Positions 2,049 through 5,295 of a DNA stretch of 5,295 bases are shown piece by piece. The notes under the pieces were generated by a model. The model saw nothing but the letters and a program-made list of their open reading frames with translations, had not been told where the DNA came from and ran no database searches. This stretch comes from Thiobacillus sp. (GTDB taxonomy: Bacteria; Pseudomonadota; Gammaproteobacteria; Burkholderiales; Thiobacillaceae), in assembly GCA_011391285.1 (NCBI GenBank), contig JAABQU010000070.1:1-5295 (forward strand), in the 5' to 3' direction. The stretch's first letter is position 1; the number at the start of each line of letters is the position of its first letter. The position numbers were made by a program, and so were the translations under genes.

Positions 2049-2102
2049 GCGGCCTCGCCTCACGCACGGCAGCCCCTGCCACGCTGGATAAACGCTGAAA
2101 TG

Positions 2103-2108
2103 AAGGAA
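2103..2108 (+). promoter_or_regulatory. Shine-Dalgarno sequence favouring the start at 2115
   Basis: AAGGAA sits 6 bases before the ATG at 2115. It lies downstream of the alternative in-frame ATG at 2100, which has no such motif. This is the reason for choosing the shorter, 308-residue form of the next gene, which also starts directly at a normal signal peptide. Confidence 0.6.
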
Positions 2109-2114
2109 ACACGC

Positions 2115-3041
2115 ATGCACATCATTCGCTTCTTGTTCGCCCTTGTTCTGCTCGGGCTGATCGCCCCGGTACACGCCCTCACGCTCAAGCCGCACCTTGT
2201 CGCGCCGGGGGTTTATGCCTTCGTCGGCGAGGTCGGCGGGCGAACCTACGCAAACGAAGCGATGAACGCCACCACCGGGTTCGTGGTCACGACGGCAGGC
2301 GTGGTGGTGATCGACAGCGGGGCGTCGTATCGGGTCGGCAAGCAGATTCACCAGGCGATTCGCCGGGTGACCCTGCAACCGGTCAAAGTCGTGATCAACA
2401 CCGGCGGACAGGATCACCGCTGGCTGGGCAACAGCTATTTCGTCACGCTGGGCGTGCCCATCATCGGCCACCAGAACATGCGCGCCGACGCCGAGGAACG
2501 CGGCGCGCAACTGATCCAGTCACTGCAGGGCGAACTCAAGGAAAAGCTGGAAGGCACCCGGGTCGTGCTGCCGACGCAGACCTTCGAAACACACCATCAC
2601 CTGCGGCTGGGCAAAACCGATTTCGAGCTGATTTTCTCCGCCCCCGCCCACACTCCGGGCGACATCATGGTCTGGCTACCGCAGAGCCGCGTCGTATTCA
2701 GCGGCGACATCGTGTTCACCGACCGCCTGCTGGGGGTGCTGCCGTTCAGCAGTGTGGCCGGAGGGATTGCATCATTCGATGCAATGGCCGCGCTCAAGCC
2801 CGCGCGAATCGTGCCGGGGCATGGCGCTGTCTGCGACCTTGCCAAGGCGCGCCGCCAAACACGGGATTATCTGGTGCTGCTGCACGACCACATGAAGCGT
2901 GCGGTCGATGCCGGCGAGGACTTGCAAACCGCACTCGACACGCTGGATCAAGGCGCCTATTCGAAGCTGCCCAACTTCGATCTGCTGAGCGGCAGCAACG
3001 CCAGCCGAGCCTACCTGGAAGCGGAGGCGGCGGCATTCTGA
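2115..3041 (+). CDS. Exported metallo-beta-lactamase-fold protein with altered zinc motif
   Basis: This is a probable periplasmic member of the MBL-fold hydrolase superfamily, resembling the SoxH / quinoprotein-relay type of secreted MBL proteins; its substrate is unknown. From the ATG at 2115 it has 308 residues; starting at 2100 would add five. The N-terminus is a signal peptide: MHIIRF, a hydrophobic stretch, then an A-x-A-like PVHA cleavage site near residue 21. MBL elements follow in order: the VVVIDSGAS strand-loop, the metal motif region TGGQDHRWLGN, APAHTPGD, FSGDIVFTDR and VPGHGAV. The usual HxHxDH reads T-G-G-Q-D-H, so the first two zinc-1 histidines are missing. The Asp-His pair, the His of AHTPGD, the bridging Asp of SGD and the final His of PGHG remain. 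It lies 66 bases after ribD on the same strand and may be read from the same transcript, but no functional link to riboflavin is evident. The fold is confident; the function is not. Confidence 0.85.
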   Translation: MHIIRFLFALVLLGLIAPVHALTLKPHLVAPGVYAFVGEVGGRTYANEAMNATTGFVVTTAGVVVIDSGASYRVGKQIHQAIRRVTLQPVKVVINTGGQDHRWLGNSYFVTLGVPIIGHQNMRADAEERGAQLIQSLQGELKEKLEGTRVVLPTQTFETHHHLRLGKTDFELIFSAPAHTPGDIMVWLPQSRVVFSGDIVFTDRLLGVLPFSSVAGGIASFDAMAALKPARIVPGHGAVCDLAKARRQTRDYLVLLHDHMKRAVDAGEDLQTALDTLDQGAYSKLPNFDLLSGSNASRAYLEAEAAAF

Positions 3042-3056
3042 ATCCGGTTGCATGGA

Positions 3057-3749
3057 CTACGTTGCGCGCACTGAAAAATCCTCGAACAGCCCAGCAAGTC
3101 CCTCGCCCACGTCCCGCAGAGGCCGGCCGCGCGTCGCGTTCTGGCACAGGGCCTCGTCCGCACACCCCTGGCTGCGAAAGGCCTGGATGACGAAATGTTT
3201 CACCCCTTGCGTGGCCAGATCGTGTGCGAGGCTGACCACTTCGGCATCAGCCAGCAGCGCCGGATGCACGGTGGTGCGGACTTCATGGGCGACGCCAGAC
3301 GCCACCACTTCCAGCAGCCCGGCATGCGCCCGCTCGCCGCTGCCGGCCACGCCGGTGACGCGCGCGTAATCAGCAAACGGCGCCTTCACGTCCAACCCCA
3401 CCCAGTCGACCAGCGGCAGCACTGCCGCCAGCCGCTGCGGGTACATGCCGCCGGTGTGCAGGCCGATCTTGAATCCGAGCGCGCGCACCTCGCGCATGGC
3501 GTCAGGCAGGCCCGCCTGCAAAGTCGGCTCGCCGCCGGAAAACACCACGCCGTCGAGCAGCCCCTGGCGCCGACGCAAAAAGGACATTACGTCGGCCCAG
3601 AGAATTTCGCTGTCGCTGCGCGACGGAATCAGGCCGGGGTTGTGGCAATAGCCGCAATGCCACGGGCAGCCCTGGCAGAACACCACTGCGGCCAACTTGC
3701 CGGGCCAGTCCGAGGTAGAAAGCGGGGTTAGGCCGCCAACACGCAGCAT
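3057..3749 (-). CDS. nrdG: Anaerobic ribonucleotide reductase activating protein, radical SAM (NrdG)
   Basis: NrdG is the cytoplasmic activase of class III ribonucleotide reductase. Its [4Fe-4S] cluster cleaves S-adenosylmethionine, and the resulting radical abstracts hydrogen from the glycyl-radical glycine of NrdD. The product has 230 residues, the longer form typical of the NrdG2-type family rather than the roughly 154-residue E. coli NrdG. It begins MLRVGGLTPLSTSDWPGK and carries the radical-SAM cluster motif CPWHCGYC (Cys28, Cys32, Cys35, with a further Cys25), followed by HNPGL, the SAM-binding SGGEPTLQ at 71-78, and GLDVKAP near 118-124. The ATG at 3749 was chosen because family homology starts there. 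The frame stays open to an ATG at 3956, but that stretch is compositionally non-protein-like and overlaps the upstream gene. The Shine-Dalgarno sequence is weak. Its target glycine is apparently on the separate small protein encoded just upstream. The stop is TAG, 15 bases from the convergent MBL gene. Confidence 0.94.
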   Translation of the reverse strand: MLRVGGLTPLSTSDWPGKLAAVVFCQGCPWHCGYCHNPGLIPSRSDSEILWADVMSFLRRRQGLLDGVVFSGGEPTLQAGLPDAMREVRALGFKIGLHTGGMYPQRLAAVLPLVDWVGLDVKAPFADYARVTGVAGSGERAHAGLLEVVASGVAHEVRTTVHPALLADAEVVSLAHDLATQGVKHFVIQAFRSQGCADEALCQNATRGRPLRDVGEGLAGLFEDFSVRAT

Positions 3750-3847: not shown

Positions 3848-4033
3848 TCAGGCAGAGCAGCGGCCTTCGACGAAGAACTGCCGCTCGCGATGCTCGCCCT
3901 GCTTGCCCTTGTTGAAGCTCGTCACCGGGCGATGGTACCCCATCACGCGGGTCCACACTTCGCAGCGGGTGCGCTCCTCATCCTTCAAAGTCACGGCGAG
4001 CTGGGCTTGGGTCAAAACACTCATGTCGTTCAT
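3848..4033 (-). CDS. Separate glycyl-radical domain of class III ribonucleotide reductase (split NrdD C-terminus)
   Basis: This 61-residue protein corresponds to the last segment of ordinary NrdD proteins, the part that carries the stable glycyl radical. It reads CEVWTRVMGYHRPVTSFNKG from residue 24, and Gly32 in RVMGY is the expected radical site. The following KGKQGEHRERQFF is the usual NrdD tail. The first 20 or so residues (MNDMSVLTQAQLAVTLKDEE) form a linker-like lead. The gene starts 26 bases after the stop of the large nrdD part, in a different frame. It has its own strong Shine-Dalgarno sequence, which argues for a real gene over a frameshift artefact. It probably associates non-covalently with the large subunit and is activated by NrdG encoded downstream. 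An alternative is a stand-alone spare part comparable in idea to GrcA/YfiD for pyruvate formate-lyase, but the adjacent NrdD lacks its own glycyl segment, so this copy should be essential to the enzyme. Databases often name such short ORFs simply as anaerobic ribonucleoside-triphosphate reductase. Confidence 0.88.
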   Translation of the reverse strand: MNDMSVLTQAQLAVTLKDEERTRCEVWTRVMGYHRPVTSFNKGKQGEHRERQFFVEGRCSA

Positions 4034-4039
4034 TTCAAT

Positions 4040-4045
4040 CTCCTT
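4040..4045 (-). promoter_or_regulatory. Strong Shine-Dalgarno sequence of the glycyl-radical gene
   Basis: On the minus strand AAGGAG lies 6 bases before the ATG at 4033, close to the ideal ribosome-binding arrangement. It is the best Shine-Dalgarno match among the genes in this window. It is the main sequence evidence that the small gene is initiated independently instead of by frameshifting from nrdD. Confidence 0.85.
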
Positions 4046-4048
4046 CTT

Positions 4049-4064
4049 GGGTTCAGGGTTCAGG
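4049..4064. repeat. 7-bp tandem duplication over the nrdD stop codon
   Basis: The plus strand reads GG, GTTCAGG, GTTCAGG (minus strand CCTGAAC twice, then CC). The unit contains the TGA that ends the large nrdD part, so the repeat spans the stop and the first part of the 26-base junction. Removing one copy would leave the same TGA in frame, so the duplication alone does not explain the split gene. Confidence 0.7.
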
Positions 4065-5295
4065 CTGCAACAGCTTGCTTGCGGGACAGGACTTCCTCGT
4101 CGCATTTCGGACAAAACTCGTGCTCGCCGGCGAGGTAGCCATGTTTGGGACAAATCGAGAAGGTCGGTGTCACGGTGATGTAGGGCAGGCGGAAACGTTC
4201 CAGCGAGCGGCGCACCAGGTTGCGGCATGCGTCTGCGGATGAGATGTTTTCCGACATGTAGAGGTGCAGCACGGTGCCGCCTGTGTACTTGCGCTGCAGG
4301 TCGTCCTGCCGCTCCAGCGCCTCGAAGGCATCGTCGGTGAAACCCACCGGCAGTTGCGACGAGTTGGTGTAGTACGGCATGTCTTCGGTGCCCGCCTGCA
4401 GGATGGCCGGATAACGCTTGCGATCCTCCTTGGCGAAACGGTAGGTGGTGCCCTCGGCTGGCGTGGCCTCCAGGTTGTACATGTGGCCCGTTTCTTCCTG
4501 GAACGCAGCGATGCGTCCACGGATGTGATCGAGCAGACGCACCGCGAAATCGTGGCCCCACTCGGAAGTGATGTCGTGCTCGTCGCCGGTGAAATTGCGG
4601 ATCATCTCGTTGACGCCATTGATGCCGATGGTCGAGAAGTGATTGCGCAGGGTGCCGAGATAGCGCTTGGTGTAGGGGAACAGGCCGTTGTCCATCAGGC
4701 GCTGGATCTCCTTGCGCTTGATTTCCAGGCCGTTTCGCGACATGTCGAGCAGGGCGTCAAGGCGGCGCAGCAGACCTGCCTCGTCACCCTTGTACTCGTA
4801 GCCCAGGCGCGCGCAGTTGACCGTCACCACCCCGACCGAACCGGTCTGCTCGGCCGAGCCGAACAGGCCGTTGCCGCGCTTCAGGAGTTCGCGCAGGTCA
4901 AGCTGCAGGCGGCAGCACATCGAGCGGATGTGGTTCGGCTTCATCTCGGAATTGATGAAGTTCTGGAAGTAGGGCAGGCCGTACTTGGCTGTCATCTCGA
5001 ACAGCAGCGTGGCGTTCTCGGATTCCCACGGGAAATCCGGCGTCATGTTGTAGGTCGGGATGGGGAAGGTGAACACGCGGCCCTTGGCGTCGCCCGTGGT
5101 CATCACCTCGATGTACGCACGGTTGATCATGTCCATCTCGGCCTGCAGCTCGCCGTAGGTGAACGGCATTTCCTTGCCGCCGACCACTGGCACCTGCTCG
5201 CGCAGGTCTTCCGGGCACACCCAGTCGAAGGTCAGGTTGGTGAACGGCGTCTGGGTGCCCCAGCGCGACGGCACGTTTAGGTTATAGATCAGTTC
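4060..5295 (-). CDS. nrdD: Anaerobic ribonucleoside-triphosphate reductase, large part (5' end outside window, lacks glycyl-radical tail)
   Basis: Class III ribonucleotide reductase reduces ribonucleotides to deoxyribonucleotides in the absence of oxygen, using a protein thiyl radical generated from a glycyl radical. The visible 411 residues enter at the right edge as ELIYNLN followed by VPSRWGTQTPFTNLTFDW, a typical NrdD core. They include FPIPTYNMTPDFPW, YFQNFINSEMKPNHIRSMCCRL (Cys127/Cys128 of the fragment, probable thiyl-radical site), SVGVVTVNCARLGY (Cys161), YTNSSQLPVGF and a zinc knuckle CPKHGYLAGEHEFCPKC (Cys382, His385, Cys395, Cys398). The reading frame then ends at KQAVAA, just where other NrdD proteins continue into the RVxGY glycyl-radical loop; that loop is in the next gene. 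The N-terminal ATP-cone and real start are beyond the window. A GTG at 5274 is internal coding sequence. Cotranscription with the two downstream genes is likely, and regulation by NrdR and an oxygen-responsive factor is inferred from the family, not seen. Confidence 0.95.
   Translation of the reverse strand, partial: ELIYNLNVPSRWGTQTPFTNLTFDWVCPEDLREQVPVVGGKEMPFTYGELQAEMDMINRAYIEVMTTGDAKGRVFTFPIPTYNMTPDFPWESENATLLFEMTAKYGLPYFQNFINSEMKPNHIRSMCCRLQLDLRELLKRGNGLFGSAEQTGSVGVVTVNCARLGYEYKGDEAGLLRRLDALLDMSRNGLEIKRKEIQRLMDNGLFPYTKRYLGTLRNHFSTIGINGVNEMIRNFTGDEHDITSEWGHDFAVRLLDHIRGRIAAFQEETGHMYNLEATPAEGTTYRFAKEDRKRYPAILQAGTEDMPYYTNSSQLPVGFTDDAFEALERQDDLQRKYTGGTVLHLYMSENISSADACRNLVRRSLERFRLPYITVTPTFSICPKHGYLAGEHEFCPKCDEEVLSRKQAVAA

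Follow-up and report, generated by a model that had tools for sequence, protein, structure and literature searches.

A class III ribonucleotide reductase gene of Thiobacillus with its glycyl-radical loop on a separate gene, and candidate spare loops in bacteria and phages

The divided nrdD locus

The window analysed here, a whole 5,295-nucleotide stretch at the start of a Thiobacillus sp. contig (JAABQU010000070.1), carries on its minus strand an nrdD core of a class III (anaerobic) ribonucleotide reductase (RNR), followed by a small gene encoding a stand-alone glycyl-radical loop and then by nrdG. The core (4060-5295, minus strand; 411 amino acids of the 3' part visible, 5' end beyond the window) matches Pfam NRDD (PF13597, 562 positions) over positions 141-535 (E 1e-124), with PRK08270 as its best NCBIfam match. 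Its C-terminus reads CPKHGYLAGEHEFCPKC-DEEVLSRKQAVAA-stop, with the zinc ligands CPKHGYLAGEHEFCPKC at 4102-4152 and the stop codon at 4060-4062, and the translation bears out the claim of an earlier note on this DNA that the large NrdD part stops 13 residues after the last zinc cysteine. The loop lies in a 61-residue protein (3848-4033, minus strand; C-E-V-W-T-R-V-M-G-Y-H-R-P) that matches PF13597 over positions 532-562 (E 3.7e-8), the profile breaking at the gene border. The small open reading frame (ORF) begins 26 nt past the core stop codon, in a frame other than that of the core, at an ATG (4031-4033) preceded at 6 nt by an AAGGAG ribosome-binding site (4040-4045); each of these elements, like the RVMGY motif on its own gene, is as the earlier note described it. 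The range 3848-4062 comprises the small gene, the spacer and the core stop codon. From the RVMGY motif and the alignment with NrdD, the radical glycine is predicted to be Gly32 (codon 3938-3940, minus strand).

The third gene, nrdG (3057-3749, minus strand; putative start ATG 3747-3749), encodes the radical-SAM activase and scores 210 bits against TIGR02495 (NrdG2; cut-off 131). The locus has the class III traits of a barrel and a zinc ribbon in the core and of an activase in the operon, and departs from the class in one trait, the same-chain glycyl-radical loop, which is here on a separate gene. At the level of the genes, the sequence makes the split of nrdD certain. The NrdDh groups are those of PMC4493059, which defines group 4 by an MCCR motif and a Phe in the finger loop. 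Both are present in the window core, MCCR at 4909-4920 and a predicted finger loop GLFGSAEQTGS at 4837-4869 (both minus strand), the Phe of which probably sits at the tip. Among 151 distinct cores, MCCR was found in 149 and NGLFGS 137 times.

On the plus strand, the window gene list gives the 3' end of glyA (1-459), nrdR (507-956) and ribD (957-2048); a metallo-beta-lactamase-fold gene follows at 2100-3041, whose product comes near the models of 'quinoprotein relay' zinc hydrolases related to SoxH, with scores under their cut-offs.

Conservation of the separate loop gene

A protein search with the small protein retained 3171 of 3172 scored candidates at E ≤ 1e-3. Among the 120 matches listed, the relatives are 60-73 amino acids long, a shortness that is partly by construction since the search finds only proteins of 0.55-1.75 times the query length, and they are frequently named 'hypothetical protein'. 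The same three genes, core, small gene and nrdG, are found on Cupriavidus necator H16 pHG1 (H16_RS32680, H16_RS32675 and H16_RS32670, the last two overlapping) and on a Bradyrhizobium ottawaense plasmid, and in both the small gene is annotated 'nrdD'.

A DNA scan of named genomes, seeded with EERTRCEV/WTRVMGYH, gave at least 584 confirmed stretches, and the results below rest on 80 of these loci, the most that each scan keeps. Note that invariance inside the seed peptides, here and in the virus scan described below (E[VI]WTRVM/GYHRP...), is partly by construction. The 80 loci are mostly from Beta- and Gammaproteobacteria, with a few Alphaproteobacteria and contigs of metagenome-assembled genomes (MAGs) labelled Omnitrophota, Verrucomicrobiota/Opitutaceae and Acidobacteria, single MAG contigs possibly carrying wrong labels. 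At 76 of them the loop has a core upstream and nrdG downstream, counting the one natural fusion (L035), which is the only locus with core and loop in a single ORF. The other four are L047, with a short flank lacking nrdG, L019, where nrdG is accompanied by a mere remnant of the core, and the pair L059 and L062, with neither core nor nrdG nearby. Three rows are uncertain: L019 for its core remnant, L022 for Ns in the core tail and L053, a Thiothrix locus, for an N between start and loop. An internal TGA in L053 was considered as a read-through case and set aside, as that N, in the stretch L053:5964-6019 between an overlapping ATG with a Shine-Dalgarno sequence and the loop, leaves the frame uncertain.

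Leaving out L035 and L019, the distance from core to small gene ranges from -26 to 549 nt. Where a core match exists (78 loci), the small gene falls in the three frames relative to the core 29, 25 and 24 times. Purifying selection acts on the small gene, as shown by a ratio of non-synonymous to synonymous substitution rates (dN/dS) of 0.21 (33 codons, 78 rows) and of 0.23 in the 17 codons outside the search patterns. Neither the visible window core nor any of the 151 distinct cores (0/151) holds another R[VIL]xGY motif, as the earlier note had claimed for the window; note that fused cores have the motif, and split cores lack it in their final 75 residues, by definition of these labels. Two of the findings that the note had named as speaking against it do not hold: a joining indel is excluded by relatives with the same separation, and fusion in all close relatives is contradicted by the single fusion among the 80 genome loci.

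Two genome samples extend this picture, 'split' meaning here a separate loop match, with ORF ends read on the fetched loci. Of 369 genomes, 38 match NRDD and were read as 28 split, 7 fused and 3 fragments or weak; of 337 genomes, 39 match, comprising 27 split, 10 fused, 1 partial and 1 unclear. G598 falls outside the split and fused classes. These PF13597 searches scored a small number of candidates in each genome, so that copies were possibly missed, as with the linked copy of G442, which is present yet unlisted. The fetched loci number 192, duplicates included, of which 175 lack the loop in the core ORF and 17 have it. At least five genomes (G794, G922, G883, G840 and G959) hold, besides a split nrdD, an additional NrdD that is a single chain and of a different type, and G386, of the genus Thiothrix, has two core-plus-small pairs (L140 and L141) on different contigs. 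A possible hairpin in the spacer that separates small gene and nrdG was also considered and dropped: z was below -2 in 14 of 32 folded loci (mononucleotide shuffles) and 0.34 in the window. Strong hairpins are predicted 3' of the small gene in L004, L007, L009 and L020.

Could the two ORFs be the remains, or the parts, of one chain? Disruption of an ordinarily fused nrdD by a sequencing indel or a recent frameshift might be suggested by the different frames and by the merely 26 nt between the genes, but the same separation recurs in 79 of the 80 loci (two without a nearby core) across many genera, in all frames and over the full range of spacings, and in complete plasmid records; we consider the indel refuted by these relatives and give it practically no chance. 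Fusion of both ORFs by programmed frameshift, read-through or ribosome hopping finds a point in its favour in L277-L281, where both parts share one frame and are separated by just one stop codon. Against it, spacing, frame and stop codon are not constant, the small gene has its own start with a Shine-Dalgarno sequence, and in three MAGs (G713, G739 and G543) the sole small gene found lies on another contig than the core, which makes such fusion very improbable. A third possibility is that the linked protein is a backup of the GrcA kind and that the core makes its radical otherwise. YfiD/GrcA is similar in shape and size; yet the cores carry no other radical-loop motif, and at nearly all loci the small gene stands between core and nrdG, as expected for a subunit, so that we regard this as improbable too. 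The preferred reading, that the window encodes an NrdDh4-type class III RNR on two polypeptides, a core ending after the zinc ribbon and a 61-residue radical-loop subunit, is in our view probably correct on these genomic grounds. The earlier note's proposal of an NrdD on two polypeptides is in this way backed by conservation, by varied spacings and frames, by the own start and ribosome-binding site, by purifying selection and by the unlinked copies described below.

Unlinked and virus-borne loop genes

The earlier note asked whether the small protein always adjoins a tail-less NrdD. It does so at nearly all of the 80 loci, but unlinked copies and orphan virus copies also exist. The genomes of the core-less loci L059 and L062 also hold a normal core-plus-small pair. 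In the 337-genome sample, extra unlinked copies occur in 5 of the 27 split genomes (G001, G442, G513, G725 and G530), and these extra copies accompany a linked one. In the 17 fused genomes of both samples, no extra stand-alone copy was found. Two candidates were dropped, G630 C1 as another loop type and G509 C238 as a weak match. Genomes with extra or other-contig copies are mostly draft assemblies; in G713, the small gene adjoins an NrdG-like ORF recognised by eye.

Several of these copies have phage genes around them. An extra copy in a Thiobacillus MAG comes after phage baseplate and tail genes, that of G513 is close to a phage endolysin gene, and the G274 orphan (L137, G274:C3:12400-24400) lies in a region resembling a prophage, near genes for SSB, RecT, a RecE-like protein and an RNR barrel of class I/II type (952 aa). 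Seven orphans were set against 174 loop windows, some of them duplicates. For three, no other window came as close as the linked copy of the same genome; for two, both from G442, that copy shared first place, and for the remaining two it was outdone by one and by two windows, respectively. The two G513 copies are identical at 37 of 38 residues, with a synonymous-site difference of 0.76.

The scan of IMG/VR gave 132 stretches, 127 of them confirmed, and the locus results rest on 80 of the 127. No NrdD core or nrdG was found in the available flanks of these 80 viral loci, the weak core matches there (60-77 bits) overlapping the loop itself. A search of the whole records of 50 of the 80 found in all 50 a single NRDD match at the profile end (from position 513 or beyond); a core was found in 0/50 of these records, which are possibly fragments, and a class I/II RNR barrel in 0/50. 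Structural phage genes adjoin the loop at five of six loci scanned, namely portal or head-tail adaptor (L155), portal (L157, L202), head protein and protease (L161), neck (L161, L202) and tail fibre (L190); L182 has replication, helicase and SSB genes as neighbours. The dN/dS of the viral loops is 0.24, and 0.35 in the 17 unforced codons compared with the bacterial 0.23, so by this sequence measure selection on them is purifying and weaker than in bacteria. In nine of the aligned viral proteins (L146, L153, L156, L167, L184, L198, L199, L202 and L209), a Cys-rich stretch (C-x-H ... C ... C-x-x-C-like) precedes the loop and is perhaps a metal knuckle of their own; the AlphaFold model of a Cys-rich copy (mean predicted confidence, pLDDT, 66.7) is too poor for use.

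All ten proteins compared with PHROG 4132, a phage family listed as of unknown function, match it (the window protein, prophage L062 and eight viral ones; E 3.1e-11 to 4.3e-5), the window protein with E 1.9e-9 over residues 15-56. The matches cover positions 110-159 of 179, and the N-terminal part of the family is unmatched by the tested proteins.

A proposed two-polypeptide enzyme and its known counterparts

In the mechanism we propose, the small protein would dock in the core barrel at the site occupied by the tethered loop of fused NrdD, NrdG would load the radical on its Gly32, and the complex of core and small protein would reduce ribonucleotides. With the structure models being of single chains, the docking of core and loop is here a prediction; the model of the natural fusion L035 aligns with fused NrdD through the loop. 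The core itself being loop-less, the linked copy is expected to be indispensable as a subunit, and only the extra and viral copies would be spares. Less surely, a loop on a separate chain may allow an oxygen-cleaved one to be swapped for a fresh one, the extra genomic and orphan phage copies then providing the host enzyme with reserve or additional radical subunits. The unlinked and orphan virus copies fit a GrcA-like spare part for RNR and lend indirect support to the earlier note's idea that a damaged radical piece is replaced, which stays hypothetical. Whether the radical loop of NrdD can be exchanged in this sense, as a subunit of about 60 residues replaced without remaking the 76-kDa core, with extra and phage copies that maintain or restart host anaerobic deoxyribonucleotide (dNTP) synthesis, we judge to be an even question.

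Alternatively, the orphan phage copies could act as inhibitors, by titrating NrdG or by obstructing the barrel, and not as working spares. NrdG has to bind the loop, and the viral records searched as a whole have neither a core nor a class I/II RNR barrel of their own; but the residues around the radical Gly are kept, the unforced codons remain constrained as given above, and starving its own replication of dNTPs would hardly pay for a phage. We hold inhibition to be unlikely, although less so than the rivals weighed for the linked gene.

Several observations weigh against the two-chain, exchangeable-loop reading itself. Fused forms make up 16 of the 82 rows of a core tree (21 of 192 cores dropped as short or with the zinc motif unmatched, 172 rows thinned to 82) and lie inside the same subgroup, so separation is not essential for function. 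The sequence match of the loop to solved NrdD structures is too weak to count alone. A search of 50,697 GenBank phage records returned one weak match, in the ANMV-1 virus and annotated anaerobic RNR; the orphan phage copies therefore rest on metagenomic contigs and prophages. Magnetospirillum fulvum DSM 13234 (L059:6001-9296), where an extra loop gene stands 63 nt upstream of an aerobic class I nrdA ORF followed by nrdB, is the sole two-copy genome among 55 of its family, and this copy is likely a local duplication because its similarity to the linked copy begins, as judged by eye, 5' of the start codon. No boxes of the NrdR consensus were found near either M. fulvum copy.

A literature search largely outside subscription papers found no account of a class III NrdD divided in this way, nor of a spare part for NrdD. 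The computed mass of the C. necator H16 pHG1 core is 76.2 kDa. Siedow et al. (1999) reportedly described nrdD and nrdG of Alcaligenes eutrophus H16 with an NrdD of 76.2 kDa, and may already remark on the missing motif; the N. bacilliformis NrdD work of Wei et al. (2014) may be relevant as well. If the reading is correct, it would provide a spare-part system for RNR and a function for PHROG 4132, adding concrete, testable candidates for spare parts of RNR to YfiD and Y06I, which serve another glycyl-radical enzyme. A separate radical subunit common in proteobacteria would alter the ways in which activation, turnover and oxygen damage can be studied, as the radical piece could be supplied, withdrawn, labelled or aged independently of the catalyst.

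Compared with known systems, fused NrdD (Thermotoga maritima 4COI/4U3E, Prevotella copri 8P2S, phage T4 1HK8) has the same barrel, zinc ribbon and radical loop and is likewise partnered by NrdG; the present form differs in that one gene encodes the zinc ribbon and another the loop, with a diffusible loop protein. Like the latter, GrcA/YfiD and T4 Y06I are small stand-alone glycyl-radical proteins, also carried by phage, and resemble the extra loops that some genomes hold beside the enzyme's own. Andorfer et al. (2021; PMC8683613) describe the rescue of cleaved pyruvate formate-lyase (PFL) by YfiD and Y06I, present these two as the only validated spare parts and consider others possible for further glycyl-radical enzymes. 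Pfam gives the small protein no kinship to the PFL loop family: a scan of it at E ≤ 0.01 returned PF13597 only, ruling out that it is GrcA by sequence. GrcA belongs to PF01228. Moreover, the linked copy of split NrdD replaces the loop of a loop-less core, as in the window, and does not back one up.

Novelty is limited by known splits in RNRs of classes I and II and by interrupted phage nrdD genes. The former, NrdJa/NrdJb of class II and the class I NrdA of phage Aeh1, also place one RNR chain on two genes and work as complexes according to PMC3267527 and PMC9669993, but belong to other classes, are split at other sites and do not involve the radical loop. The latter likewise have more than one coding piece for nrdD, with six phage cases of introns, inteins or breaks counted in PMC3653736; as described there, they are whole genes broken mostly by mobile elements, whereas the phage copies reported here are the loop alone.
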